Source: Archaeoglobales archaeon (GTDB lineage Archaea; Halobacteriota; Archaeoglobi; Archaeoglobales; Archaeoglobaceae). From it: 64,000 nt of DNA. A program made the translations under genes and the position numbers. The stretch covers positions 152,616 to 216,615 of the forward strand of contig JASFYJ010000001.1 of NCBI GenBank assembly GCA_030055525.1. Direction: 5' to 3'. Shown piece after piece: positions 13,518 through 24,824 of the stretch. How positions within the stretch are numbered: position 1 is the stretch's first letter; each line of letters starts with the position of its first letter. The notes under the pieces are model-generated. The model did not search any database, was not told the origin of the DNA, and saw only the letters and a list, made by a program, of their open reading frames with translations.

Positions 13518-13742
13518 ATGCCTAAAATAATTGAAGCGATCTACGAAGACGGAGTGTTCAAGCCACTGGAGAAGGTTGATCTTAAGAGAGGTGTAAAAGT
13601 TCGAGTTTTTCTCGAAGAAAGGGGAATCATAACTGAATCACTTATAATTGAGCTCGAAAAAATTCTTAAAAATTTGCCCAAACCCAAAGTGAGGCCAGAA
13701 GATCTTGAAGAGGCTTATTATGCTGGAAAAATGCTTTATTGA
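13518..13742 (+). CDS. AF2212/DUF104 family antitoxin, cassette 1
   Basis: A 74-residue protein of the AF2212-like (DUF104, PF01954) antitoxin family. The first ~22 residues ([20 protein letters not shown]) are shared with the other five copies in the array and form the short beta-rich N-terminal part; the C-terminal ~45 residues, with a helix rich in Glu/Lys/Leu, are unique and should wrap the cognate toxin. It overlaps the toxin start by 23 nt. The pairing with a PIN toxin is typical of archaeal VapBC-like modules. Confidence 0.85.
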
Positions 13743-14163
13743 TGCTTCAGCACTTTTGGAGATTATACTGTGGAAGAGAACTGAACTCTTGCGGAAACTG
13801 TCAAACTACGTTTCATACACCTCTGTAAATGTCCTTGAGGAAGCCGCATTTAAAATTATTTATTCCAGCATAGCAGAGGATAAAATTGGCTTTTTTAAGA
13901 TGAAAGAGAAATTCGAGAAAGATTATTCCATAGATGTTTTAATCAGCAGACTCCATGCATTGAACCTCTTGAAAAATTATATGCTTGTGCTCGAAATTAC
14001 CGAACAAATCTTTGACACAGCGAAGAAGATCATCACAGAATATAGACTTCTTCCAAACGACGCCTTAATAGCTGCGACATGCAAGCATTATGGAATAAGG
14101 AAAATAGCTACCTTCGATGAGGATTTTAAAAGAGTAGATTTCCTCGAGGTTTTGGAGCTTTAA
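13720..14163 (+). CDS. PIN-domain toxin (VapC-like), cassette 1
   Basis: A 147-residue PIN-domain ribonuclease, presumed toxin of the preceding antitoxin. The four acidic active-site positions are present: Asp in FIDAS, Glu in LEEAAF, Asp in PNDALIA and Asp in ATFDED. The last 38 residues are almost identical to those of the other four toxins, whereas the N-terminal ~110 residues are unrelated at sequence level. I start it at ATG 13720, preceded by GAAGAGG, instead of the TTG at 13705. Target RNA is unknown; many VapC enzymes cut tRNA or rRNA. Confidence 0.85.
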
Positions 14164-14239
14164 TTTCTTTAGCTCGACACATCAATGAACTCTTTTAAAT
14201 CCTAAGCTTTCTCTCTTTTAGTTGCTCAGCGAAAAGCTG

Positions 14240-14286
14240 AAAAAGTTAAGCGAAACCTATTTCTATTCTCAAAGCGAACTAAATCT
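14240..14286 (+). promoter_or_regulatory. conserved cassette promoter 2
   Basis: GTTAAGCGAAACCTATTTC followed by TATTCTCAAAGCGAACTAA precedes the second antitoxin. The same BRE/TATA-like block occurs upstream of all cassettes, with the start codon about 25 nt downstream of the TATA-like part. Confidence 0.5.
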
Positions 14287-14493
14287 ATGCCTAAAATAAT
14301 TGAAGCGATTTACGAAGACGGAGTATTCAAACCATTGGAGAAAGTTAATTTGAAGCCCGGAGAGAGGGCGAAGATCATGATTGTGGCGATAGATGACCTG
14401 ATAAATGAGTTTTACGGCTTAATCAACTCAGATCTAACGCTTGAAGATATTAAAAAAGCAAGATACGAGGCCAAAGGATGGAGAAGGTTCTAA
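14287..14493 (+). CDS. AF2212/DUF104 family antitoxin, cassette 2
   Basis: A 68-residue antitoxin with the shared N-terminus (to about residue 30 it differs from cassette 5 by only two residues) and a unique C-terminal half containing [21 protein letters not shown]. It ends 16 nt inside the toxin gene. The DNA differences from the other copies within the conserved block are mostly at third codon positions. Confidence 0.85.
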
Positions 14494-14936
14494 TTGACAC
14501 AAATGTGCTGGTTAATTTTCTTCTTAGAACAAAGTTTTCCGAAAAGTCTAAAGAGATCATAAAGACCGCCTTAACCCTATACTTTCCAGTAATCTTCGTA
14601 AACATCTTTGAGGAGGCAATATTTATACTTATAAGGGAAGAACTAAAATCTAAAGGCATTTCTGAGTTCTACGATCAAAAAGAATTTTTAGAGAAGCACG
14701 GTTATGAAAATCTCTTCATCCACAGAAAGTTCATGGATTTTCTTAGAAAGGCAGAAATCAATGTTCTGGAAAATAGATTTGAATCTCGTGATTTTTTGTG
14801 GATTTTGGAAGAGTATAGGCTTTTCCCAAACGACGCTTTAATAGCTGCAACTTGCAAGCATTATGGAATAAAAAAGATCGCTACTTTCGACGAAGACTTC
14901 AAGAGGGTTGATTTCCTCGAGGTTTTGGAGCTTTAG
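14478..14936 (+). CDS. PIN-domain toxin (VapC-like), cassette 2
   Basis: A 152-residue PIN-domain protein. Acidic residues: Asp in LIDTNVLV, Glu in FEEAIF, Asp in PNDALIA, Asp in ATFDED. The N-terminal and middle parts are specific to this cassette (a longer insert with [17 protein letters not shown]), the 38-residue C-terminus is the common one, with Phe replacing Leu before PNDAL. A GAGG element lies 7 nt before the ATG. Expected role is RNA cleavage when released from its antitoxin. Confidence 0.85.
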
Positions 14937-14958
14937 AATTTATTTTCATTTAATCCGC

Positions 14959-15006
14959 CTGCTAAGAAGTGCGCAACTCGCAGAGTTGCGGTGAAGTAGC
15001 GAACGC
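14959..15006. repeat. G+C-rich spacer hairpin element, copy C
   Basis: Runs from CTGCTAAGAAGTGC to GCGAACGC and contains the perfect hairpin GCAACTC-GCA-GAGTTGC. It lies between cassettes 2 and 3, followed by TTCTTGTAATTCTA, a tail shared with copy E. Confidence 0.55.
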
Positions 15007-15050
15007 CAGATTCTTGTAATTCTACCCCTTAGACTTAACCCAAGAAAGAA

Positions 15051-15098
15051 TGAAAAGTTAAGCGAAACATATTTCTATTCTTAAGGCGAACTAAATCC
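15051..15098 (+). promoter_or_regulatory. conserved cassette promoter 3
   Basis: GTTAAGCGAAACATATTTC and the following TATTCTTAAGGCGAACTAA before the third antitoxin repeat the common promoter block, with one change in the TATA-like part. Confidence 0.5.
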
Positions 15099-15299
15099 AT
15101 GCCAAAAATCATTGAAGCAATCTACGAAGATGGAGTGTTCAAACCATTGGAGAAGGTTGATTTAAAAGATGGAGAGAAAGTGAGAGTGGAAATAAAGAAA
15201 GACATAGATCGGTTGAGAGGAAAGTATAAAGCCAAGCTTCCCCAGATGGTCGAGCTAAAGGATGAAATTTATGACAGAAGGTGCCATCTTCATAGATAG
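15099..15299 (+). CDS. AF2212/DUF104 family antitoxin, cassette 3
   Basis: A 66-residue antitoxin with the common N-terminal ~30 residues and a unique basic C-terminus (IDRLRGKYKAKLPQMVELKDE). It overlaps the toxin by 29 nt, the longest overlap of the array. Confidence 0.83.
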   Translation: MPKIIEAIYEDGVFKPLEKVDLKDGEKVRVEIKKDIDRLRGKYKAKLPQMVELKDEIYDRRCHLHR

Positions 15300-15723
15300 T
15301 TCCGCGTTTCTGTCTTTTTTCATGGAGGGCATTGATTTATTCCAGAAGCTTTCTGGTGAGCTCGTTACTTCTGTAAATGTGATTGAGGAGGTAGTTTATA
15401 TCCTTATAAAGGAAAAAGCCCGAGAAATCACTAAGATGGATAAACACTATGATCTTTTGATTTACCTTCGAGAAAATCCTGAAACCACATCAAAAATCGC
15501 AGAAGAAGTTATTTCTGACATTTCAGCTATTATCGATTACTTTGGAATTATGGTGTTGCCAACCGCAAGATATGAGGAGATGTTTGAAATCATCAAAAAA
15601 TACGGTTTACTTCCAAACGACGCTTTAATAGCTGCGACTTGCAAGCATTATGGAATCAGGAAAATAGCAACATTCGACGAAGACTTCAAAAGGGTTGATT
15701 TTCTAGAGGTTTTGGAGCTTTAG
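15271..15723 (+). CDS. PIN-domain toxin (VapC-like), cassette 3
   Basis: A 150-residue PIN-domain protein with Asp in FIDSS, Glu in IEEVVY, Asp in PNDALIA and Asp in ATFDED. The C-terminal 38 residues are identical to those of cassette 1. I use ATG 15271 because an AAAGG element is correctly spaced for it; the ATG at 15262 is only three bases from that element. The middle of the protein (residues 40-110) resembles none of the sibling toxins. Confidence 0.84.
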   Translation: MTEGAIFIDSSAFLSFFMEGIDLFQKLSGELVTSVNVIEEVVYILIKEKAREITKMDKHYDLLIYLRENPETTSKIAEEVISDISAIIDYFGIMVLPTARYEEMFEIIKKYGLLPNDALIAATCKHYGIRKIATFDEDFKRVDFLEVLEL

Positions 15724-15758
15724 AATTCTTTTTTACAAGCGGATCTTAAAATGTTTAA

Positions 15759-15803
15759 GCTTGCAATGAGCTGTGCAATCCAAAAGTGCTTAGTAGTGAA
15801 TGC
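15759..15803. repeat. G+C-rich spacer hairpin element, copy D (degenerate)
   Basis: GCTTGCAATGAGCTGTGCAA then a linker and GCTTAGTAGTGAATGC between cassettes 3 and 4 aligns with the other copies but has lost most stem pairing; the GAACGC end has become GAATGC. Confidence 0.4.
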
Positions 15804-15824
15804 TAATTTTCTTAATTTTTTAGC

Positions 15825-15872
15825 CAATAAACCTATCGAAACCTATTTCTATTTTCAAAGCAAACTAAATTC
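15825..15872 (+). promoter_or_regulatory. conserved cassette promoter 4
   Basis: Same block as promoter 1 (AGCCAATAAACC, then CGAAACCTATTTCTATT, then CAAAG), placed about 25 nt before the fourth antitoxin start. Confidence 0.5.
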
Positions 15873-16058
15873 ATGGCAAAGATCATTGAAGCGATCTACG
15901 AGAATGGCGTTTTCAAACCATTGGAGAAGGTTGAGCTAAAGGATGGGGAAAGAGTTAAAATAAGGATTGGAAATGTCGTAGAAAGAACAAGGGGGATAAT
16001 TAAAGGGTGTGATATGGATAAAATAATAAAGGAGGTTGAAAATGGAAGTTTTCTTTGA
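15873..16058 (+). CDS. AF2212/DUF104 family antitoxin, cassette 4
   Basis: The shortest and most divergent antitoxin of the array, 61 residues. The common N-terminus is present with Ala for Pro at position 2 and Asn for Asp at 11. The C-terminus ([20 protein letters not shown]) resembles that of cassette 5 slightly ([15 protein letters not shown]), so these two cores may share ancestry. It overlaps the toxin by 17 nt. Confidence 0.83.
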
Positions 16059-16461
16059 TTCAAATGTTTTTCTGCATCATTTAGCCAACACTCGTGAAGT
16101 TGCGAGCAAATTGCTTGAAGACGTTGAAAACGGCAAGATTACTGGATTTATCAACGACGTAGTAGTTTCTGAGGTAATTTATGGATATCTGCGTGCTTTA
16201 ACGAATTTAAAGCCCCATCAACTTCAATCAAAACTACCCAAAATCGATTTTGATCTCAGCCCCATTAAGGACTTGCTCAGTTTGTTTCGAGTTCTTTCCT
16301 GCAGCTTTGGTGTGGAAGTTGCTGAAATCGTCGAGAAATACAAGCTGCTCCCGAATGACGCTTTAATAGCTGTGACTTGCAAGCACTACGGAATAAAAAA
16401 GATCGGTACTTTCGACGAAGACTTCAAGAGGGTAGATTTCCTCGAGGTTTTAGAGCTTTAG
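16042..16461 (+). CDS. PIN-domain toxin (VapC-like), cassette 4
   Basis: A 139-residue PIN-domain protein, the shortest toxin here. Asp in FFDSN, Glu in VSEVIYGY, Asp in PNDALIA and Asp in GTFDED give the complete acidic set. In the common C-terminus it has two private changes (AVTCKHY and KKIGTFDE). A perfect AGGAGG ribosome binding site 6 nt before ATG 16042 fixes the start. Confidence 0.85.
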
Positions 16462-16482
16462 AATTTATTTTCATTAATCCAC

Positions 16483-16527
16483 GTGCTACGAAGTGAGCAA
16501 TCTCAAGGATAGCGAAGCGGCGAACGC
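16483..16527. repeat. G+C-rich spacer hairpin element, copy E
   Basis: GTGCTACGAAGTGAGCAA, a short linker, then GATAGCGAAGCGGCGAACGC between cassettes 4 and 5. It shares both the core and the downstream TTCTTGTAATTCTA tail with copy C. Confidence 0.5.
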
Positions 16528-16570
16528 AACTTCTTGTAATTCTATCCTTTAGACCACCTAGAAAGAATGA

Positions 16571-16615
16571 AAAGTTAAGCGAAACCTATTTCTATTCTTA
16601 AAACAAACTATATTC
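16571..16615 (+). promoter_or_regulatory. conserved cassette promoter 5
   Basis: AAGTTAAGCGAAACCTATTT and the following CTATTCTTAAAACAAACTA repeats the common promoter block directly before the fifth antitoxin. Confidence 0.5.
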
Positions 16616-16813
16616 ATGCCTAAGATAATCGAAGCAATTTACGAAGACGGAGTTTTCAAACCTCTGGAGAAAGTTAATTTGAAGCCCGGGGAGAGGGTAA
16701 AAATTAGACTCGAAGATGCGGATTCCATAGTAGAAGAAGTTTTCGGTATCCTGAAGGGAAAGGACACAAATAAAGCTCTCAAAGAGTTGGAAAATGAATG
16801 GGGTTTTTGTTGA
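16616..16813 (+). CDS. AF2212/DUF104 family antitoxin, cassette 5
   Basis: A 65-residue antitoxin: common N-terminal ~30 residues, then a unique acidic stretch ([16 protein letters not shown]) and a C-terminal [13 protein letters not shown]. It overlaps its toxin by 20 nt. Confidence 0.84.
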
Positions 16814-17225
16814 TTCCTCTGTTTTTCTTAAAGTTTTAGAGGGAAACGAAAAAGTCAAGGAGTCATTTAAGTCCCTGATAAGAAAAGAGAGATTGTATCG
16901 TAATGCAATCGTTTACAGCGAGGTTCTTTATGTGTTTATAAAGCTAAAGACGGGCAAAAAGAGTTACGAGATCAGAAGTCAACCGGAGATCATCAAATCC
17001 AGCGAAAAAGAGCTTCAAAAACTGTTTGAATTCCTTAACTTAGCGCACTCGCTACCGATAACTGAAGAAGTGGAAATGATCTCTGCGAGCTTAATGAAGG
17101 AATATGGTTTGTTGCCAAACGACGCCTTAATAGCTGCGACCTGCAAGCATTATGGAATAAGGAAAATAGCCACCTTCGACGAGGATTTTAAAAGAGTAGA
17201 TTTTCTGGAAATTTTGGAGCTTTAA
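16794..17225 (+). CDS. PIN-domain toxin (VapC-like), cassette 5
   Basis: A 143-residue PIN-domain protein: Asp in FVDSSVFL, Glu in YSEVLYV, Asp in PNDALIA, Asp in ATFDED. The common 38-residue end has one change (Ile for Val in LEILEL). Both the DNA of this end and the spacer that follows are closest to those of cassette 1, although the cores of the two toxins are unrelated. Confidence 0.85.
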
Positions 17226-17743: not shown

Positions 17744-18832
17744 TCATCGAGAGCTTTCAGGGGCAACAGAGCCCCACATCTGAAGGTTTAGTACAGCTAC
17801 AACATCTCTATCCATTACAAAACCGCATTCTTCGCGTTTCATTATACTGCCATCATAGGAAGCCATGCTTCCTGAGCAGAGTGGGCAGGTTTTGGATGAA
17901 TTGGCCTGATTGATATATTTTACCGGTAAGCCAAGCCATTTAAGCTTGTATTCGAGCATGAACTGGAATGTTCTTGCGTTCCATTTTGATAGCTTTCTGT
18001 TCACGTTTCTCGAGCCACTAAGAATTCGCCTCTTTACACCTTTCAGTTCTTCGAGAATCGCTCCGCATTTCATCTCTTTAAGCTCTCTCGCAATCCGCGC
18101 GGTTAGCTTGTGCATGAAGTTCCTTAGCCCTATTCTTCTCACACCCAGAATACTTTTTTAGCAGCTTCTTTGAGGTCAGAGGTTTAATCCTGGATAACTT
18201 TTGTATCTTCCGTCTTTTTACCTCGTAGACTCTGTGGATATGGTAAAGTTTTCTTAAGTCATAGCGCCTAATCTCGCCATCTATGAATGCCGTTATGTTC
18301 GTCAGGTTCACATCGAAGGAAGCCCACTTTTCCGCTTTAGGTTCAACATTCTTCCTGAACGTGATTATCAGCTCTTTCTCCGTTAAGATTAGTCCGCCGA
18401 TTCTATCAAAATCGCTCGGAATCCAGCTATACTTTCTTAAGTCAACTTCAAGATAGCGTTTATTCGGTTCAATGCTTATCCTCAATATTCCTTTTTTGAA
18501 GCTGAAGAGCGTGCTCTTGATGTAAACCGTTCTTTTAGTCATCTCGGGCTTACCTTCAGTTTTTCTCCTATTGTAGAGCGTTATCCAGCCCTTAACTAAG
18601 CCTATGACGGAGTTTATTGCTGAATCGACGTAGTGTTTTGAAAATCTCTAGTCTTTCAGCAGCTCTCTAAGTCTTTTCCTGTCTTCTCTATCGAATTCAA
18701 GGTGAGCCTTCCTGGAAATCTTGACATGCGATAGGATTACGTCTAAAACCTTCTGCTTAACTTTGAAGTATTCTTCGATTAAATCCCTTGGAGCTTCTAT
18801 TGGTATCTTGTAGCTTTTAACTGCTTCTACAA
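17744..18832 (-). pseudogene. tnpB: TnpB (IS605/IS607 OrfB RNA-guided nuclease), frameshifted
   Basis: Three pieces are readable. From about 18832: KSYKIPIEAPRDLIEEYF to RLRELLKD, then an in-frame TAG at 18648-18650 where a Trp is expected. From 18542: NRKYLEV-type strand region and the RuvC-I aspartate in ASFDVNLTNITAF. A frameshift near 18118 moves into the frame 18142-17744, which holds the RuvC-II glutamate region (ILEELKGVKRR), the zinc-ribbon cysteines (CPLC, and a degraded EECG) and the RuvC-III aspartate in DRDVVAVLNL. With one nonsense codon and one frameshift the protein is not made intact. All three catalytic acids survive, so inactivation looks recent. Confidence 0.8.
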
Positions 18833-19491: not shown

Positions 19492-20940
19492 TCAGTCTTT
19501 TGGAATTTCCTCAGAAATTCCAGCCAGATACTTCGCTATATCCTTTTTCTTTTCAAAGTTGTAAGTTCTCCAGATCAATATCTCTTCCATCACCGGTGAA
19601 CCGCCGCCATGGACACCAGCAACAGCCTGAACTCCTCCAAGAGAAGAGCATAGAATATTAGATATCCCAAAAAGACATCTATAAACGTGTTCTGGTGGAA
19701 CATCGCTTTTTCTCTTTATGTATTTCTCTATGAGTGGTCTTGTTTCTGGATTTAGGTAATCTTCAACAAAAGGAAGAGCTGCTGGAAGTCCACCTGCAAG
19801 TTCAGCAAGTATTTCAAGCTCCTTGTAGTAATTTAAACCTGCATGTCTTCTTCCAACGTTTGCGTAAACTTCGTTCGGTAAATATGTCCCCGCGGGCGTC
19901 TTTCTACCAAATACTGCTGAAGCTACACCTGCTGCGTACACCAACTCAGCAGTTGCCGCAAGTTCAACCAGCTTCTCTCTGATGTTTGGCCTGTCATAAA
20001 CACCATTGTATTCAGCTATCAGCGCACCAAATCCCATCATTATGTCTGTACTTGCAGGTTTGCAGCCAGTATAGCTATGTCTGTGGAATAGGGCAAATAG
20101 ATGAGCTGCTAAAGTTGCATATTTATACTCTCCACATATAAAAACTCTCTCCCACGGTACAAAGACATCATCGAAGATTATCAGATTTTCATCATCCCCT
20201 ATCTCCCCCTGAGGCATCTTCAAACCTTCAGGTGCTCTAAGCTTGCTAGTTCTTGAGATTATCTTCACACCATCTGTATCTGCAGGAACTGCAAAAGCGA
20301 CACTGTAATTTACATCTTTTTCAGTCATAGCTCTTGTTGGTACAACGATTATCTCATCAGCAACAGCTGCCATGGTTATGCAATTTTTTGCCCCTCTAAC
20401 TACTACTCCATCACTTCTCTTTTCAACCACTCTAACGTACATGTCCGGATCTGATTGTTCATGTGGCCTTTTGCTACGATCACCCTTAACATCTGTCTGT
20501 GCACACGCTGCAACAAGATCTCTCTCCTGGAACTCTTTTAAGTAATCTAGAAACTTCTTGTGATAATCCGTTCCATGCTCCAAGTCGCAGAAGTACGTCG
20601 CAACTGAAAGTCCATTTATGGCATCACAGCCCATGCATCTCTGAATACACCCTCCAACCAAGCGACACAGTTTTCTTGTTACTTCTTGTTTCTTCATCAA
20701 ATCCTCGACAGACTGGTTTATGTGGGTAAATCTGTTTATTTTTTTTCCAGTAAGATGCGATTTGGCTGTTAAGATGTCTTTGAAGTATTCATTGTCCACA
20801 AGATCAAAAGTTTTGGAGATGACGTTTATACCTCCCGAAAGCTCATCTGAATCTCTACGTACCTTTTTCCCTCTTACATATACGTTTGGTTTCATCTTGT
20901 ATAAATCCTGTCTATACTCTTCTGAAGTTCTCATCATCAA
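19492..20940 (-). CDS. abfD: 4-hydroxybutyryl-CoA dehydratase
   Basis: A 482-residue FAD and [4Fe-4S] enzyme of the HpaB/AbfD family that dehydrates 4-hydroxybutyryl-CoA to crotonyl-CoA by a radical mechanism and also isomerises vinylacetyl-CoA. The cluster ligands of the characterised clostridial enzyme (C99, C103, H292, C299) have counterparts C98 and C102 in CIQRC, and H286 and C293 in HRHSYTGC, with matching spacing. This argues for a true dehydratase rather than a 4-hydroxyphenylacetate hydroxylase relative. Three ATG codons stand in a row at the start, after a GGTG element. It is the last gene of the operon, 6 nt after the thiolase. Confidence 0.9.
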   Translation of the reverse strand: MMMRTSEEYRQDLYKMKPNVYVRGKKVRRDSDELSGGINVISKTFDLVDNEYFKDILTAKSHLTGKKINRFTHINQSVEDLMKKQEVTRKLCRLVGGCIQRCMGCDAINGLSVATYFCDLEHGTDYHKKFLDYLKEFQERDLVAACAQTDVKGDRSKRPHEQSDPDMYVRVVEKRSDGVVVRGAKNCITMAAVADEIIVVPTRAMTEKDVNYSVAFAVPADTDGVKIISRTSKLRAPEGLKMPQGEIGDDENLIIFDDVFVPWERVFICGEYKYATLAAHLFALFHRHSYTGCKPASTDIMMGFGALIAEYNGVYDRPNIREKLVELAATAELVYAAGVASAVFGRKTPAGTYLPNEVYANVGRRHAGLNYYKELEILAELAGGLPAALPFVEDYLNPETRPLIEKYIKRKSDVPPEHVYRCLFGISNILCSSLGGVQAVAGVHGGGSPVMEEILIWRTYNFEKKKDIAKYLAGISEEIPKD

Positions 20941-20946
20941 ACACCT

Positions 20947-22143
20947 TCAAACTCTCTCGATTATAACTGCCGCTCCTTGCCCACCGCCAACGCAGGCTGT
21001 TGCTAAACCATAATCTCCTCCAGTTTCTTGTAAAATTCTTGCACATGTTCCGATCAATCTAGCTCCCGAAGCTGCAAGCGGATGACCAATAGCAATAGCT
21101 CCACCCTTGATATTCACCCTTTCAGGCTCAACTTTAAGCTCATGTATCGCATAAAGAGGAACAATTGCAAATGCTTCATTGATCTCCCAAACATCTATAT
21201 CACTTATCTTCAAATTTACTTTCTCCAAAGCCTTCTTAGATGCTGGAACGGGTCCTTTACCCATAACATAAGGCGGTACACCTGCGGTTCCATAAGTTAC
21301 TATCTTTGCGAGAGGTTCGATGCCGAATTCCTTTATTTTTTCCTTGCTCATTAGCAACAAACCAGAGGCTCCTGCATTTAGTGGTGATGAATTGCCGGCA
21401 GTTATAACTCCATCCGGTTTAAAGGCTGGAGGTAATTTTACAACCTGTTCAAGGCTTGTATCTCCTCTTATCGACTGATCAGAATCTACGACTATCTTCT
21501 TACCGTCAGCCTGCTCAGCTTCAACCGGCATTATCTCTCCCTTGAAGTAACCTTCTTTAAGCGCTTTGTAAGCTAATTGGTGACTTCTAACTCCCCATTG
21601 ATCCATATCTATCTTCTTTAGTCCGAATTTTTCTGCAGCCTCTTTGAAAAGTTCTTCAGCCGTTAGACCCATTACAAAGCCTATATCCATTCTGTAATCT
21701 TTATATTCTTCACTCAAAAGTTTCAGATTTGGGCTTCTGTGTGGATTGTCACCCATAGGAACCCTTGTCATGTGCTCAAATCCACCGGCTATTACAACAT
21801 CGCAGATACCTGCGGCAATCTCTAGAAATGCAAAACCGGTGGTCATTAAAGAGGATGCACACTGCATATCTACTACTGTTGTTGAAACTTCGTGTGGGTA
21901 TTTAGCTAGGATCGTTGCCATCTTACCTCCATATCCCCAGTTTTCCCATATTGGAAAAGCACATCCGATGTGGATTCTATCCACATCTCTTTTCTCTATT
22001 CCAGCTCTTCTTGGTAACTCCTCTAAAACCATCGCCATCAGTTCATCTCCCCTTATTTTGTGAAAAACATCCCTCTCAGGTTGTTGAGGCCTGCTCCTAG
22101 AGAAGGGCGTTCTTACGTATGCTGCAATGTAAACTTCCCTCAT
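20947..22143 (-). CDS. acetyl-CoA acetyltransferase (thiolase)
   Basis: A 398-residue thiolase. The nucleophilic cysteine is in VDMQCASSL, the active-site histidine in IGHPLAASGAR and the second cysteine in ATACVGGGQGA near the C-terminus; NEAFAIVPL supplies the usual NEAF motif. It thus has the complete biosynthetic/degradative thiolase active site and lacks the archaeal SCP-x-type pattern and its DUF35 partner. In this operon it could cleave acetoacetyl-CoA to two acetyl-CoA. A GGAGGTG ribosome binding site precedes the ATG. Confidence 0.9.
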   Translation of the reverse strand: MREVYIAAYVRTPFSRSRPQQPERDVFHKIRGDELMAMVLEELPRRAGIEKRDVDRIHIGCAFPIWENWGYGGKMATILAKYPHEVSTTVVDMQCASSLMTTGFAFLEIAAGICDVVIAGGFEHMTRVPMGDNPHRSPNLKLLSEEYKDYRMDIGFVMGLTAEELFKEAAEKFGLKKIDMDQWGVRSHQLAYKALKEGYFKGEIMPVEAEQADGKKIVVDSDQSIRGDTSLEQVVKLPPAFKPDGVITAGNSSPLNAGASGLLLMSKEKIKEFGIEPLAKIVTYGTAGVPPYVMGKGPVPASKKALEKVNLKISDIDVWEINEAFAIVPLYAIHELKVEPERVNIKGGAIAIGHPLAASGARLIGTCARILQETGGDYGLATACVGGGQGAAVIIERV

Positions 22144-22256
22144 CGATTCACCTCCAACTAATGATTTTTGTATTCAAATTTAAAACTTTCGCATTTTTCG
22201 AAATAATTTCGAAAATATTTCGTAGAACATGAAAATAAAAATATTAAATTTAAATG

Positions 22257-22835
22257 TTAAGATTGATGTACGGCCATCTTTTTCGCCATCTGCCTCTTTA
22301 CAAAGTTTGTAACGAACTTTAAGACTCCTAGAACACCCAGTATTAGTACTGCTCCACCAATTATCTCCACTGCAATCCATGAGATCCATATGTTGTGGTT
22401 TGCTAAAAAGCTTGCAAGATCGGCGAAAGAGACTGTGAAGTACATGAAAGCGTAGCTGTTGAAAAGCCAAGGTAGCTTTTGAGTCAATACAACTATTAGG
22501 AAGACGAAGACTGCAACGTAGATCATTACCGGCAATAGCATTGCTAAATCTTTTCCAAAGGTTGCAAAATAGTGCGCTGTCGAGTTTACAAACAACATGC
22601 AAAGGAAAAAGTTCACTATACCAAAGGCTCCACCTACTATTATCTTGCTGATTTCTTGTTTGTTTTCGTGCGTAACAAAGAACAATATCATTGCTACAAA
22701 GGCTGGCCAAGTTGCTAAATGTAATGCTTCAAGAGCAAATAGTACTATCAGAACCTCCAGCACCAGCAAAATTCCAAAAAACACGCGTGCATTCAAAGGT
22801 AAGCCAAACTTCTGTTCAATCTTTTGTTCAGTCAT
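22257..22835 (-). CDS. six-segment membrane protein in the 4-hydroxybutyrate operon
   Basis: A 192-residue integral membrane protein with about six hydrophobic segments (approximately residues 17-40, 42-56, 64-82, 93-117, 124-145 and 150-176) and a basic C-terminus. The pattern of Trp/Pro/Ala in the second segment followed by a glycine-rich third is vaguely like DUF1097-type proteins, but I cannot assign a family. It lies between the CoA ligase and thiolase with GAGGTG before its ATG. The location suggests uptake or sensing of the carboxylic acid degraded by the operon; this is inference. Confidence 0.65.
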   Translation of the reverse strand: MTEQKIEQKFGLPLNARVFFGILLVLEVLIVLFALEALHLATWPAFVAMILFFVTHENKQEISKIIVGGAFGIVNFFLCMLFVNSTAHYFATFGKDLAMLLPVMIYVAVFVFLIVVLTQKLPWLFNSYAFMYFTVSFADLASFLANHNIWISWIAVEIIGGAVLILGVLGVLKFVTNFVKRQMAKKMAVHQS

Positions 22836-22872
22836 CTAAACACCTCTATCCAAAAATTTAATTTTTATTTTA

Positions 22873-24657
22873 TTATTTTTTCAGACCAAGTTTTTTCAGT
22901 TCCTCCTCACGAAGCAGCCTTCTTAAATATTTTCCAGCAGCTGATTTTGGCAACGATTCTCTGAATTCAACTACCCTTGGATATTTGTAAGATGCCATCC
23001 TTTCTTTGCACCAGTCGATTATATCCTTTTCCCTAACTTTTCCTCTGTACTCTGGTCTAAGAACTACGTAGGCTTTAATCGTCTCGCCACCAGCTGCTAT
23101 ATCAGGTAATCCCACAACACAAACTTCTTGAACTGCTGGATGTTCGTATATGACTTCTTCGACCTCTCTTGGATAAACACTATGTCCTTTGTATTTTATG
23201 ATATCCTTCAGCCTGTCAACTATGTAGAAGTAGCCATCTTCATCCATCTTTGCTATATCCCCAGTTCTAAGCCACTTCATTCCATCAACGTAGAAGAATA
23301 CTTCTTCAGTCTCTCTTGGCCTGTTCCAATAACCTTTCATAACCTGCGGTCCGCTAATAACTAATTCCCCTTCTTTACCAGGAGGTAGAAATTCCAGAGT
23401 TTCTGGATCTATGACTGCTGCATAAGTGTTTGGAATTGGTGGGCCAATCGATCCAACTTTTCTCTTTCTAAGCTGAGGAGGAAGACCATGTGTATGGGTG
23501 ACTGGAGAGGCTTCACTCAAACCATAGCCCTCGCAAAGCAATACCTTCTGGCTCGTAAGTTCATCCCACTTATATACAATTTCTGCAGGTATTGGACCAG
23601 CACCGTTGTTCACGTATAAGAGAGAACTGATATCGTACTTCTTAAAGAGTTCTGGATAGTTGTTCACGTAAGCTATGAATATCGCCGGTGCGCCCATGAA
23701 GGTCGTCACTCTGTACTTTTCAATTGTTTCAAATATTTTTTCTGGTTCAAACCTTGCAAATATGAACAAAAGTTCTCCGTTGACAAGCCCAGCATTGAGA
23801 TCTACTGTTTGGCCGTAGATATGGTACCATGGCAATAGTGCTATCCTCGAACCGCGCTTGTTGATGTAGTAATCCTTCATAGTTTTGTATTCTTTTCCAT
23901 CGAAGTCAAGAATCAAGTATTCCCCTTCTTCTCTGACGACTCTACGTGAAAAAGCCCAGTTGGTAATTATGTCTGTGTAGGGTTTCAGCTCGAAGCAATT
24001 GGCTACGACATTTTGGTGAGTTAACATAGCAGCTTTTGGCAATCCAGTAGTTCCGCCAGTATATTGCAGTACAGCGACATCTTCTCTGAAATCCCAATCA
24101 ATCTTTGGAGGTTTAGGTTCTGTTGAGAATAAAACTCTGAAATCTATAAATTCTCCATCAACTTTTGCCTCCCCTCCAGTAATGTTCGCCACTATAACCT
24201 TCTCAACCTTTGTGTTCTTCCTCACAGCATTAAAATTCGGATAAAGTTGCTCAACCGTAAAGAGAACTTTGGCACCACTATCGTTTAGCTGATACTCTAC
24301 CTCTCTTGGTGCATAGAGTGGGGATAAAGCAGTAACAGTCGCTCCAGCCTTCATCGCTCCATAGTAAGCTACAACAAACTGCGGACAGTTTGGAGAATAG
24401 ATAGCCACTACATCGCCTTTTTTAATACCTAAATTGGCAAGAAGTGTTGCAAATCTATCAATGAAGTTTTTTAGCTGTTTGTAAGTAATGCGAAATCCGT
24501 AGAAATCGACAGCTACTCTTTCTCCGTAGTTTTGGCATGCTTCGTCTATTACCTCGTGCAAAGGTTTTTCTGGAATGTATGTATCAGCCGGTAAATCTTT
24601 GGGCCATTCCCTGTTCAGCCAAAACCTGTTTTTTATAAACTCCGGTACACTTGTCAT
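22873..24657 (-). CDS. AMP-forming acyl-CoA synthetase
   Basis: An ANL-superfamily acid:CoA ligase of about 594 residues. Adenylate-binding motifs are visible: the P-loop YTGGTTGLPKAA, the GEGYGLSEASP-type A5 motif (CEGYGLSEASP), the YLRTGD-type A7 (WLRTGDIAKMDEDGYF), and the hinge DRLKDIIKYKGHSVYPREVE, with the catalytic lysine in PKSAAGKYLRR. It activates a carboxylic acid with ATP; as first gene of an operon ending in 4-hydroxybutyryl-CoA dehydratase, 4-hydroxybutyrate is the favoured substrate, though medium-chain acids are possible. I prefer ATG 24657 (GGTGG upstream) over ATG 24669. The extra ~50 residues before the core (GEYLILDFDGKEYKTMKDYY) are an unusual insertion. Confidence 0.88.
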   Translation of the reverse strand: MTSVPEFIKNRFWLNREWPKDLPADTYIPEKPLHEVIDEACQNYGERVAVDFYGFRITYKQLKNFIDRFATLLANLGIKKGDVVAIYSPNCPQFVVAYYGAMKAGATVTALSPLYAPREVEYQLNDSGAKVLFTVEQLYPNFNAVRKNTKVEKVIVANITGGEAKVDGEFIDFRVLFSTEPKPPKIDWDFREDVAVLQYTGGTTGLPKAAMLTHQNVVANCFELKPYTDIITNWAFSRRVVREEGEYLILDFDGKEYKTMKDYYINKRGSRIALLPWYHIYGQTVDLNAGLVNGELLFIFARFEPEKIFETIEKYRVTTFMGAPAIFIAYVNNYPELFKKYDISSLLYVNNGAGPIPAEIVYKWDELTSQKVLLCEGYGLSEASPVTHTHGLPPQLRKRKVGSIGPPIPNTYAAVIDPETLEFLPPGKEGELVISGPQVMKGYWNRPRETEEVFFYVDGMKWLRTGDIAKMDEDGYFYIVDRLKDIIKYKGHSVYPREVEEVIYEHPAVQEVCVVGLPDIAAGGETIKAYVVLRPEYRGKVREKDIIDWCKERMASYKYPRVVEFRESLPKSAAGKYLRRLLREEELKKLGLKK

Positions 24658-24824
24658 CTCTACCACCATTTTTAATTAGCAAATCGCAACTATTTAATTT
24701 TTTCTCTTTTTGCGCAATTTTAAAATTTTAAATGCCGATAATGTGAAAAATTTTTTTAGTAAAATAAAATTCATTACGTTACAGTTAAACTCAAAACTTT
24801 TAAAAAGCTAGAAACATCTTCATT

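Follow-up and report, generated by a model that had tools for sequence, protein, structure and literature searches.

Operon genes and the dehydratase homologue

The 64,000-nt stretch analysed here (the window) comes from an archaeon of the Archaeoglobales (assembly GCA_030055525.1) and carries on its minus strand, at 19492–24669, an operon encoding in order an acyl-coenzyme A (acyl-CoA) ligase, a membrane protein, a thiolase and a protein of the HpaB/4-hydroxybutyryl-CoA dehydratase (4HBD) type, with intergenic gaps of 37, 113 and 6 nt (Table 1). A first-pass annotation had read these genes, whose identities it gave correctly, as a route from 4-hydroxybutyrate (4HB) to acetyl-CoA with a missing step encoded at 55.1 kb. 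Labels for the paralogues of the 4HBD family are our own: the window protein belongs to what we name type B, set apart from canonical 4HBD (type A) and from a third group (type C).

Table 1. Features of the window and of the canonical 4HBD gene elsewhere in the same genome
Feature	Position	Strand	Evidence
AMP-forming acyl-CoA ligase, 598 aa	22873..24669	-	PF00501 (3e-93) and PF13193
Membrane protein, 192 aa, weakly DUF1097-like	22257..22835	-	PF06496 (2.4e-4, below cut-off)
Thiolase, 398 aa	20947..22143	-	NCBIfam PRK06445
Type B 4HBD-family protein, 482 aa	19492..20940	-	PF11794 and PF03241; TTG start, ATG follows
Fe-S ligands C98 and C102 (AbfD C99, C103)	20635..20649	-	Alignment to AbfD
Gln148, at AbfD Met149 position	20497..20499	-	Alignment
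Fe-S ligands H286 and C293 (AbfD H292, C299), with Y290 (Y296) between	20062..20085	-	Alignment
K294 (AbfD K300)	20059-20061	-	Alignment
Ala441, at AbfD Glu455 position	19618..19620	-	Alignment
3-Hydroxyacyl-CoA dehydrogenase/enoyl-CoA hydratase fusion, 646 aa	55134..57074	+	PF02737, two PF00725 stretches, PF00378
Canonical type A 4HBD, 487 aa	C10:113281-113859 (L001; L003:9240-10703)		PF03241

Pfam matches are strong for every operon protein except the membrane protein. The ligase starts at an ATG at 24669, the start at 24657 given previously being the next in-frame ATG, and carries the motifs TGGTTGLPK at residue 204 and YGLSEA at residue 382. Its best NCBIfam models are of the long-chain FadD type, all below their cut-offs, and its closest chain in the PDB is FadD-1 (3g7s). 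Most of the 60 PDB matches displayed for the ligase are split into at least two stretches, the best of which often begins near residue 276; this suggests an insertion before the best-matching stretch. The thiolase scores 625.8 bits against the acetyl-CoA C-acetyltransferase model PRK06445 (cut-off 511), and its motifs CASS, NEAF, GHPLAASG and CVGGGQG are all found. For the membrane protein, the identity of a known transporter was considered and rejected, as its DUF1097 match is weak and its structure model has a predicted local distance difference test score (pLDDT) of 58.

The dehydratase homologue combines HpaB_N (3e-92) and HpaB domains with the 4HBD fold. Its nearest PDB entries are AbfD from Clostridium aminobutyricum (1u8v, 2e-101, 38% identity over nearly the full length) and the Nitrosopumilus maritimus 4HBD (6vjr, 1e-99, 37% identity), and its AlphaFold2 model, with a mean pLDDT of 88.9, aligns with these two (Z scores of 48.4 and 48.9, respectively) more closely than with the best HpaB chain (40.7). 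All four ligands of the [4Fe-4S] cluster are conserved (C98, C102, H286 and C293), as the first-pass annotation had stated, together with Tyr296, Lys300, Thr190, Glu257, Gln101 and Arg90 in AbfD numbering, which we use for residues in three-letter code unless noted. The residues of the window protein at AbfD positions 149, 188, 190, 257, 296 and 455 are Gln, Cys, Thr, Glu, Tyr and Ala, in that order. The residue that would mark a 4HBD at position 455, a glutamate, is thus replaced by alanine (Ala441 of the window protein), an assignment that rests on an alignment anchored by HG-GS residues because the model is unreliable at residues 444–446.

In the Clostridium enzyme, the E455Q mutant is reportedly inactive; Glu455 is said to have been proposed to deprotonate Tyr296, with Glu257 and Thr190 serving the flavin. 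The 4HBD mechanism has been outlined as an internal electron transfer that yields an allylic ketyl radical together with a flavin semiquinone (PMC13101534). The identity of an HpaB flavin monooxygenase or hydroxylase was rejected for the window protein, which scores 153 bits against TIGR02309 (cut-off 480); this score cannot separate the types because the canonical 4HBD of the same genome likewise falls under the cut-off (185 bits).

Three paralogous types and their gene neighbourhoods

Matches to PF03241 occur in 35 of 55 Archaeoglobaceae genomes, the source genome included. We aligned 87 rows, made up of fetched PF03241 copies (unfetched places include G024:C275, G034:C164 and short fragments) and 33 relatives whose loci were found by exact peptide patterns of the window protein, a sample that favours type B because it was picked by those patterns. 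Six rows under 440 aa were dropped, leaving 81 of full length. Three combinations of residues recur. All 22 type A rows, AbfD and the N. maritimus enzyme included, have Met149, Glu257, Tyr296 and Glu455. All 41 type B rows, among which the window is counted twice (also as L002), have Gln149, Tyr296 and Ala455; position 257 is Glu in 25 of them and Asp in 16. All 18 type C rows have Tyr101, Leu149, Ser190, Thr257, Gly296 and Gly455; in these rows (L102–L116 without L105, and L063–L066), Thr190, Glu257, Tyr296 and Glu455 are all replaced and the cluster ligands retained. The ligands are conserved across the 81 rows, the sole gap being an unread residue at the C99 position of one type B row. With the four cluster ligands common to all three paralogous types, ligand conservation alone cannot identify a 4HBD.

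Further positions characterize type B. At AbfD positions 93 and 106, 40 of 41 type B rows have cysteine; a cysteine at position 106 also occurs outside type B, in 5 of the 22 rows of type A and 12 of the 18 of type C. Every one of 25 aligned type B proteins has Glu452 (window numbering; AbfD 466), a position held by Gln in at least 90% of type A rows. Type B is maintained rather than decaying, because Tyr296, Lys300, Arg90 and the Fe-S ligands stay while residues 455 and 149 are replaced.

Because the type labels had been assigned from residue 455, we checked them by a tree, in which HpaB served as a distant row on a very long branch and the window was counted once among 40 type B rows (L002 dropped). 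Types A (support 100/99), B (95/86) and C (100/100) each form a single clade needing one change. AbfD and the N. maritimus 4HBD lie within type A; the window protein lies outside it, in type B. By their labels, the 33 relatives comprise 16 Archaeoglobi and 17 others, which include Jordarchaeia, Baldrarchaeum, Bathyarchaeota, Hadesarchaea, two entries labelled ‘uncultured archaeon’ and three bacteria (Dehalococcoidia, Oscillospiraceae and Sedimentibacter); one relative labelled Nezhaarchaeota (L010) falls among the Archaeoglobi rows in the tree. A limited literature search returned no work that separates the three types or describes type B, from which we do not claim absence from print.

Type B is recurrently linked to genes of acid activation and β-oxidation. 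As neighbours we counted BLAST clusters of ligases, thiolases, dehydrogenases, hydratases, SCPx-type thiolases, acyl-CoA dehydrogenases and CoA-transferases within 4.5 kb, a procedure that misses distant homologues. In the Archaeoglobaceae genome set, from which all type A and type C loci were taken, such neighbours accompany type B at 16 of 22 loci, type A at 0 of 5 and type C at 2 of 14. Among the 33 pattern-found relatives they were found at 23 loci, with a ligase at 13; the two counts are not summed because the sets overlap. Individual loci illustrate the link. In Archaeoglobus sp. JdFR-37 (L014), a divergent ligase gene is followed by type B, a 4Fe-4S protein, a hydratase/dehydrogenase fusion and a thiolase, and in Sedimentibacter (L037) type B is followed by SDR-like, CoA-transferase-like, dehydrogenase–hydratase, thiolase, hydratase and ligase genes. 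At L013, a CoA-transferase gene on the opposite strand precedes an NMT1_3-type receptor, a DctM permease, a ligase, type B and MaoC, a single locus that ties type B to uptake as well as activation.

A gene of the metallo-β-lactamase fold (one cluster) stands directly upstream of type B at 4 of the 33 loci (L007, L010, L017 and L019), 3 of which also have a ligase. The product tested, from L010, has the AiiA lactonase as its nearest PDB match (2e-19) and AiiA as its best NCBIfam model as well (85.5 bits, far under the cut-off of 375), which suggests that these relatives may handle 4-hydroxy acids derived from lactones. A 4Fe-4S protein of 347–370 aa is encoded near type B at L014 (also fetched as L091), L030, L120 and L121.

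The ligase and membrane protein of the operon are also found together elsewhere. Strong homologues of the membrane protein (73–76% identity) occur in 4 other genomes of the 55 searched, with one additional weak match containing stops; a BLAST of the protein against an earlier set of loci at E 1e-8 returned nothing beyond the window, and it was the family search that found the homologues. In all four loci (L146–L149) the gene directly follows a ligase gene, one of them cut by a contig end; L146 additionally carries a thiolase, and none of the four has a dehydratase. Because the pair occurs there apart from any dehydratase, ligase and membrane protein, sometimes with the thiolase, form a separate module.

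Other copies in the genome and the host

The source genome (1.56 Mb in 16 contigs, estimated 98.49% complete) has two PF03241 genes. The second, on contig C10, encodes a type A protein that carries the AbfD residues Met149, His188, Thr190, Glu257, Tyr296 and Glu455 and is 45% identical to the window protein; no ligase gene lies in the 19.5 kb around it. Because the genome retains this canonical 4HBD, the window copy need not act as one, and with Ala at position 455 the earlier assignment of 4-hydroxybutyryl-CoA as its substrate is left unsupported.

The surroundings of the C10 gene have features of their own. A metallo-β-lactamase-fold gene lies upstream. Nearby (L003:5210-8183) are two genes for HGD-D, the D component of 2-hydroxyglutaryl-CoA dehydratase, and one for a BcrAD/BadFG activator, separated from the 4HBD gene by its small downstream gene and one opposite-strand gene, so that two unusual dehydratase systems stand close together. 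Small proteins of one cluster (81–113 aa) are encoded one or two genes downstream of type A at 17 of 22 distinct loci, many of which were fetched with just 1.5 kb of flank. Those read (L003:9002-9286 and L119:5070-5315, the latter with no Pfam match) carry the motif YCGGCNP, and the small protein may possibly be a partner of canonical 4HBD.

The gene at 55.1 kb is a hydratase/dehydrogenase fusion, as annotated before, with the domains 3HCDH_N, 3HCDH and ECH; its motifs GGGMEIN (at 499) and IPEGLIG (at 521) carry the two hydratase glutamates. It is one of nine 3HCDH_N matches in the genome, which comprise three full-length fusions (C11:25180, C14:3439 and the window copy), a stand-alone dehydrogenase of 303 aa (C14), four partial genes, one each at an end of C4, C8, C10 and C11, and a ninth match below cut-off. 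Against the fusion that neighbours type B in L014, the 497-aa piece at the edge of C11 shows 74% identity and the window copy 38%; after the C4 piece come genes homologous to those for the 4Fe-4S protein and MaoC that accompany type B at other loci. We therefore do not retain the 55.1-kb gene as the specific missing step; it is a possible, but not the leading, candidate for the operon's partner. The C4 and C11 end pieces (L139 end, L137 start) begin with identical residues and then diverge, for which reason the assembly probably broke inside repeated copies of the fusion.

The host had been described as a sulfate or iron reducer, and for sulfate reduction we find no support. The single DsrA match in the genome scores 17.8 bits against a cut-off of 392.85; none of 14 control genomes passed this cut-off either, and they included no sulfate-reducing positive control. 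McrA is present (PF02249, E 4.5e-65) and is of the methane type, scoring 900 bits to the methyl-coenzyme M reductase (MCR) of methanogens and 570 bits to ethyl-coenzyme M reductase. The genome fits MCR-bearing Archaeoglobi such as Ca. Methanoglobus and Ca. Methanomixophus, which are described as having β-oxidation genes and among which dsrAB is absent in Ca. M. hypatiae and Ca. M. hydrogenotrophicum and present in Ca. M. dualitatem (PMC10945360, PMC7380581). The string ‘hydroxybutyr’ does not occur in the main texts of these two papers.

Elsewhere in the window, five consecutive plus-strand PIN-domain (VapC-like) genes at 13705–17225 form a single BLAST cluster, with near-identical C-terminal ends in those displayed, as if copied or converted. 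On the minus strand, two overlapping frames at 17744–18542 resemble, on inspection by eye, a disrupted TnpB-like (transposase-associated) gene; a Pfam search of the frame at 18078–18542 gave no match.

What the operon may do

In the genome that we take to be that of Archaeoglobus fulgidus DSM 4304 (G001), where types A, C and B occur once each, type B stands in a ligase–thiolase–dehydratase operon and is 85% identical to the window protein; unlike in the window, the membrane protein gene is missing, and acyl-CoA dehydrogenase-like and 3-hydroxyacyl-CoA dehydrogenase-like genes adjoin. Three 4hcd homologues have been reported for A. fulgidus, AF0885 being induced 1.5-fold on H2/CO2 with thiosulfate (PMC3949148), and AF_0333, AF_0885 and AF_1027 were upregulated on methoxylated aromatics relative to lactate (PMC8359953); the matching of AF0333, AF0885 and AF1027 to the types is one that we infer from gene order. 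Metallosphaera sedula likewise has a second 4HBD homologue, Msed_1220, beside the cycle-assigned Msed_1321 (PMC7078158), and a role in alkene degradation has been suggested from five Desulfatibacillum homologues (PMC3949148). The γ-butyrobetainyl-CoA lyase BbuA shows that the leaving group of a flavin-dependent C4 elimination to crotonyl-CoA can vary, although it is just about 10% identical to 4HBD (PMC8364193).

The first-pass description stands in so far as this is an operon of an acid-activation and β-oxidation type, and falls short in naming 4HB as the substrate. We give about even chances to the proposal that the operon is catabolic, with acid activation followed by a flavin-radical rearrangement or elimination, carried out by type B on a γ-substituted acyl-CoA other than 4-hydroxybutyryl-CoA, feeding β-oxidation. 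In its favour are the placing of type B in a clade apart from that of AbfD, the replacement of Glu455 and Met149 in every type B row, the canonical 4HBD kept elsewhere in the genome, single loci with uptake or lactonase-like genes, and the frequency of acid-activation and β-oxidation genes beside type B (16/22 loci) compared with types A (0/5) and C (2/14). In this scheme, the ligase would convert an organic acid to its CoA thioester, and type B, with flavin adenine dinucleotide and a [4Fe-4S] cluster by homology, would perform a γ-elimination or a shift of the double bond from β,γ to α,β on a substrate that is probably a longer or branched 4-substituted acyl-CoA. Hydration and oxidation of the 2-enoyl-CoA so formed would fall to one of the hydratase/dehydrogenase fusions in the genome, and cleavage of the product to the thiolase. 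The cofactors, reaction, substrate, direction and partner fusion are what we infer here.

Several points weigh against this proposal. The importance of Glu455 is reportedly established by the Clostridium mutagenesis study, and another acid, for example the type-B-invariant Glu452, could replace it. No measured activity of any type B protein came to light. Ten of the 33 relatives' loci lack all of the counted neighbour genes in the 4.5-kb range; 4 of these are short or cut on one side and 6 are not. Chance could account for the joining of the ligase–membrane protein module to type B in the window, and no lactonase-like or transporter gene of the kinds seen beside relatives is among the window operon genes. 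Finally, the upregulation on methoxylated aromatics in A. fulgidus covers type A too and does not set type B apart.

More specifically, and only tentatively, type B could be a separate enzyme, a flavin/[4Fe-4S] radical γ-lyase for 4-hydroxyacyl-CoAs other than 4-hydroxybutyryl-CoA (lactone-derived, longer or branched) that works without the Glu455 base, perhaps by means of Glu452 and an altered cluster environment (the conserved Cys92 and Cys105, window numbering).

The operon might instead degrade 4HB, or crotonate or vinylacetate, to two acetyl-CoA, with type B a working 4HBD that uses a different general base. The 38% identity and Z score of 48.4 to AbfD over nearly its full length would suit this, as would the retained ligands, Tyr296, Lys300, Thr190 and Glu257, the scoring of the thiolase as an acetyl-CoA acetyltransferase and the joint presence of ligase, type B, fusion and thiolase in L014. 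We nonetheless consider it unlikely, given that Glu455 is replaced by Ala in 41 of 41 type B rows, that a canonical 4HBD lies elsewhere in the genome and that the best, if sub-threshold, models of the ligase are of the long-chain FadD type. Less probable still is that type B acts without dehydration as a Δ3-Δ2 (vinylacetyl-type) enoyl-CoA isomerase, for example rescuing unsaturated acyl-CoAs in fatty acid oxidation. Known 4HBD also isomerises vinylacetyl-CoA, 6vjr is filed under a vinylacetyl isomerase name and β-oxidation genes are frequent neighbours, but a plain isomerase would not need all the cluster ligands and Tyr296, and the lactonase-like neighbours (4/33 loci) suggest hydroxy acids.

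We regard as very doubtful that type B is a redox enzyme, akin to acyl-CoA dehydrogenases or reductases, whose cluster exchanges electrons with ferredoxin-like partners: the fold is that of the acyl-CoA dehydrogenase superfamily and a 4Fe-4S protein is encoded nearby at the loci named above, but the window operon is without such a partner and the ligands are conserved as in the redox-neutral enzyme. An autotrophic CO2 fixation cycle of which these loci would be the 4HB half is highly improbable and was rejected: late-step homologues are present (several copies each of the crotonyl-CoA hydratase/3-hydroxybutyryl-CoA dehydrogenase and thiolase families), as are three matches to iron-containing alcohol dehydrogenases and one to aldehyde dehydrogenases as family-level candidates for succinyl-CoA reductase and succinic semialdehyde reductase, but the genome has no match to archaeal phosphoenolpyruvate carboxylase (PEPcase_2, PF14010; the bacterial-type family was not searched), a single carboxyltransferase match and CdhC, a subunit of carbon monoxide dehydrogenase/acetyl-CoA synthase, and cycle activities were undetected in Archaeoglobus lithotrophicus, as relayed from a third paper (PMC3949148, PMC8359953). 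The preference of the first-pass annotation for degradation over fixation agrees with our results; a 4HB fixation cycle is not supported.

The reading as a 4HB-to-acetyl-CoA operon has only partial support; the locus is better described as an acid-catabolic operon built around a distinct and widespread clade of the 4HBD family. If type B is the γ-lyase suggested above, an anaerobic route for γ-hydroxy acids and lactones would exist in Archaeoglobi, Bathyarchaeota, Hadesarchaea, Jordarchaeia and some bacteria, and genomes with several ‘4HBD’ genes and no 4HB cycle would be explained. Published work uses 4HBD as the key or marker enzyme for CO2 fixation cycles in archaea (PMC12794621, PMC3654217); residues 149, 296 and 455 can separate it from its relatives, which would sharpen genome-based calls of carbon fixation. 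Type B is an uncharacterised clade of a flavin and Fe-S enzyme family with a clear genetic context, and it gives concrete form to the question of how Archaeoglobus, with no shown cycle, uses its three ‘4hcd’ genes.

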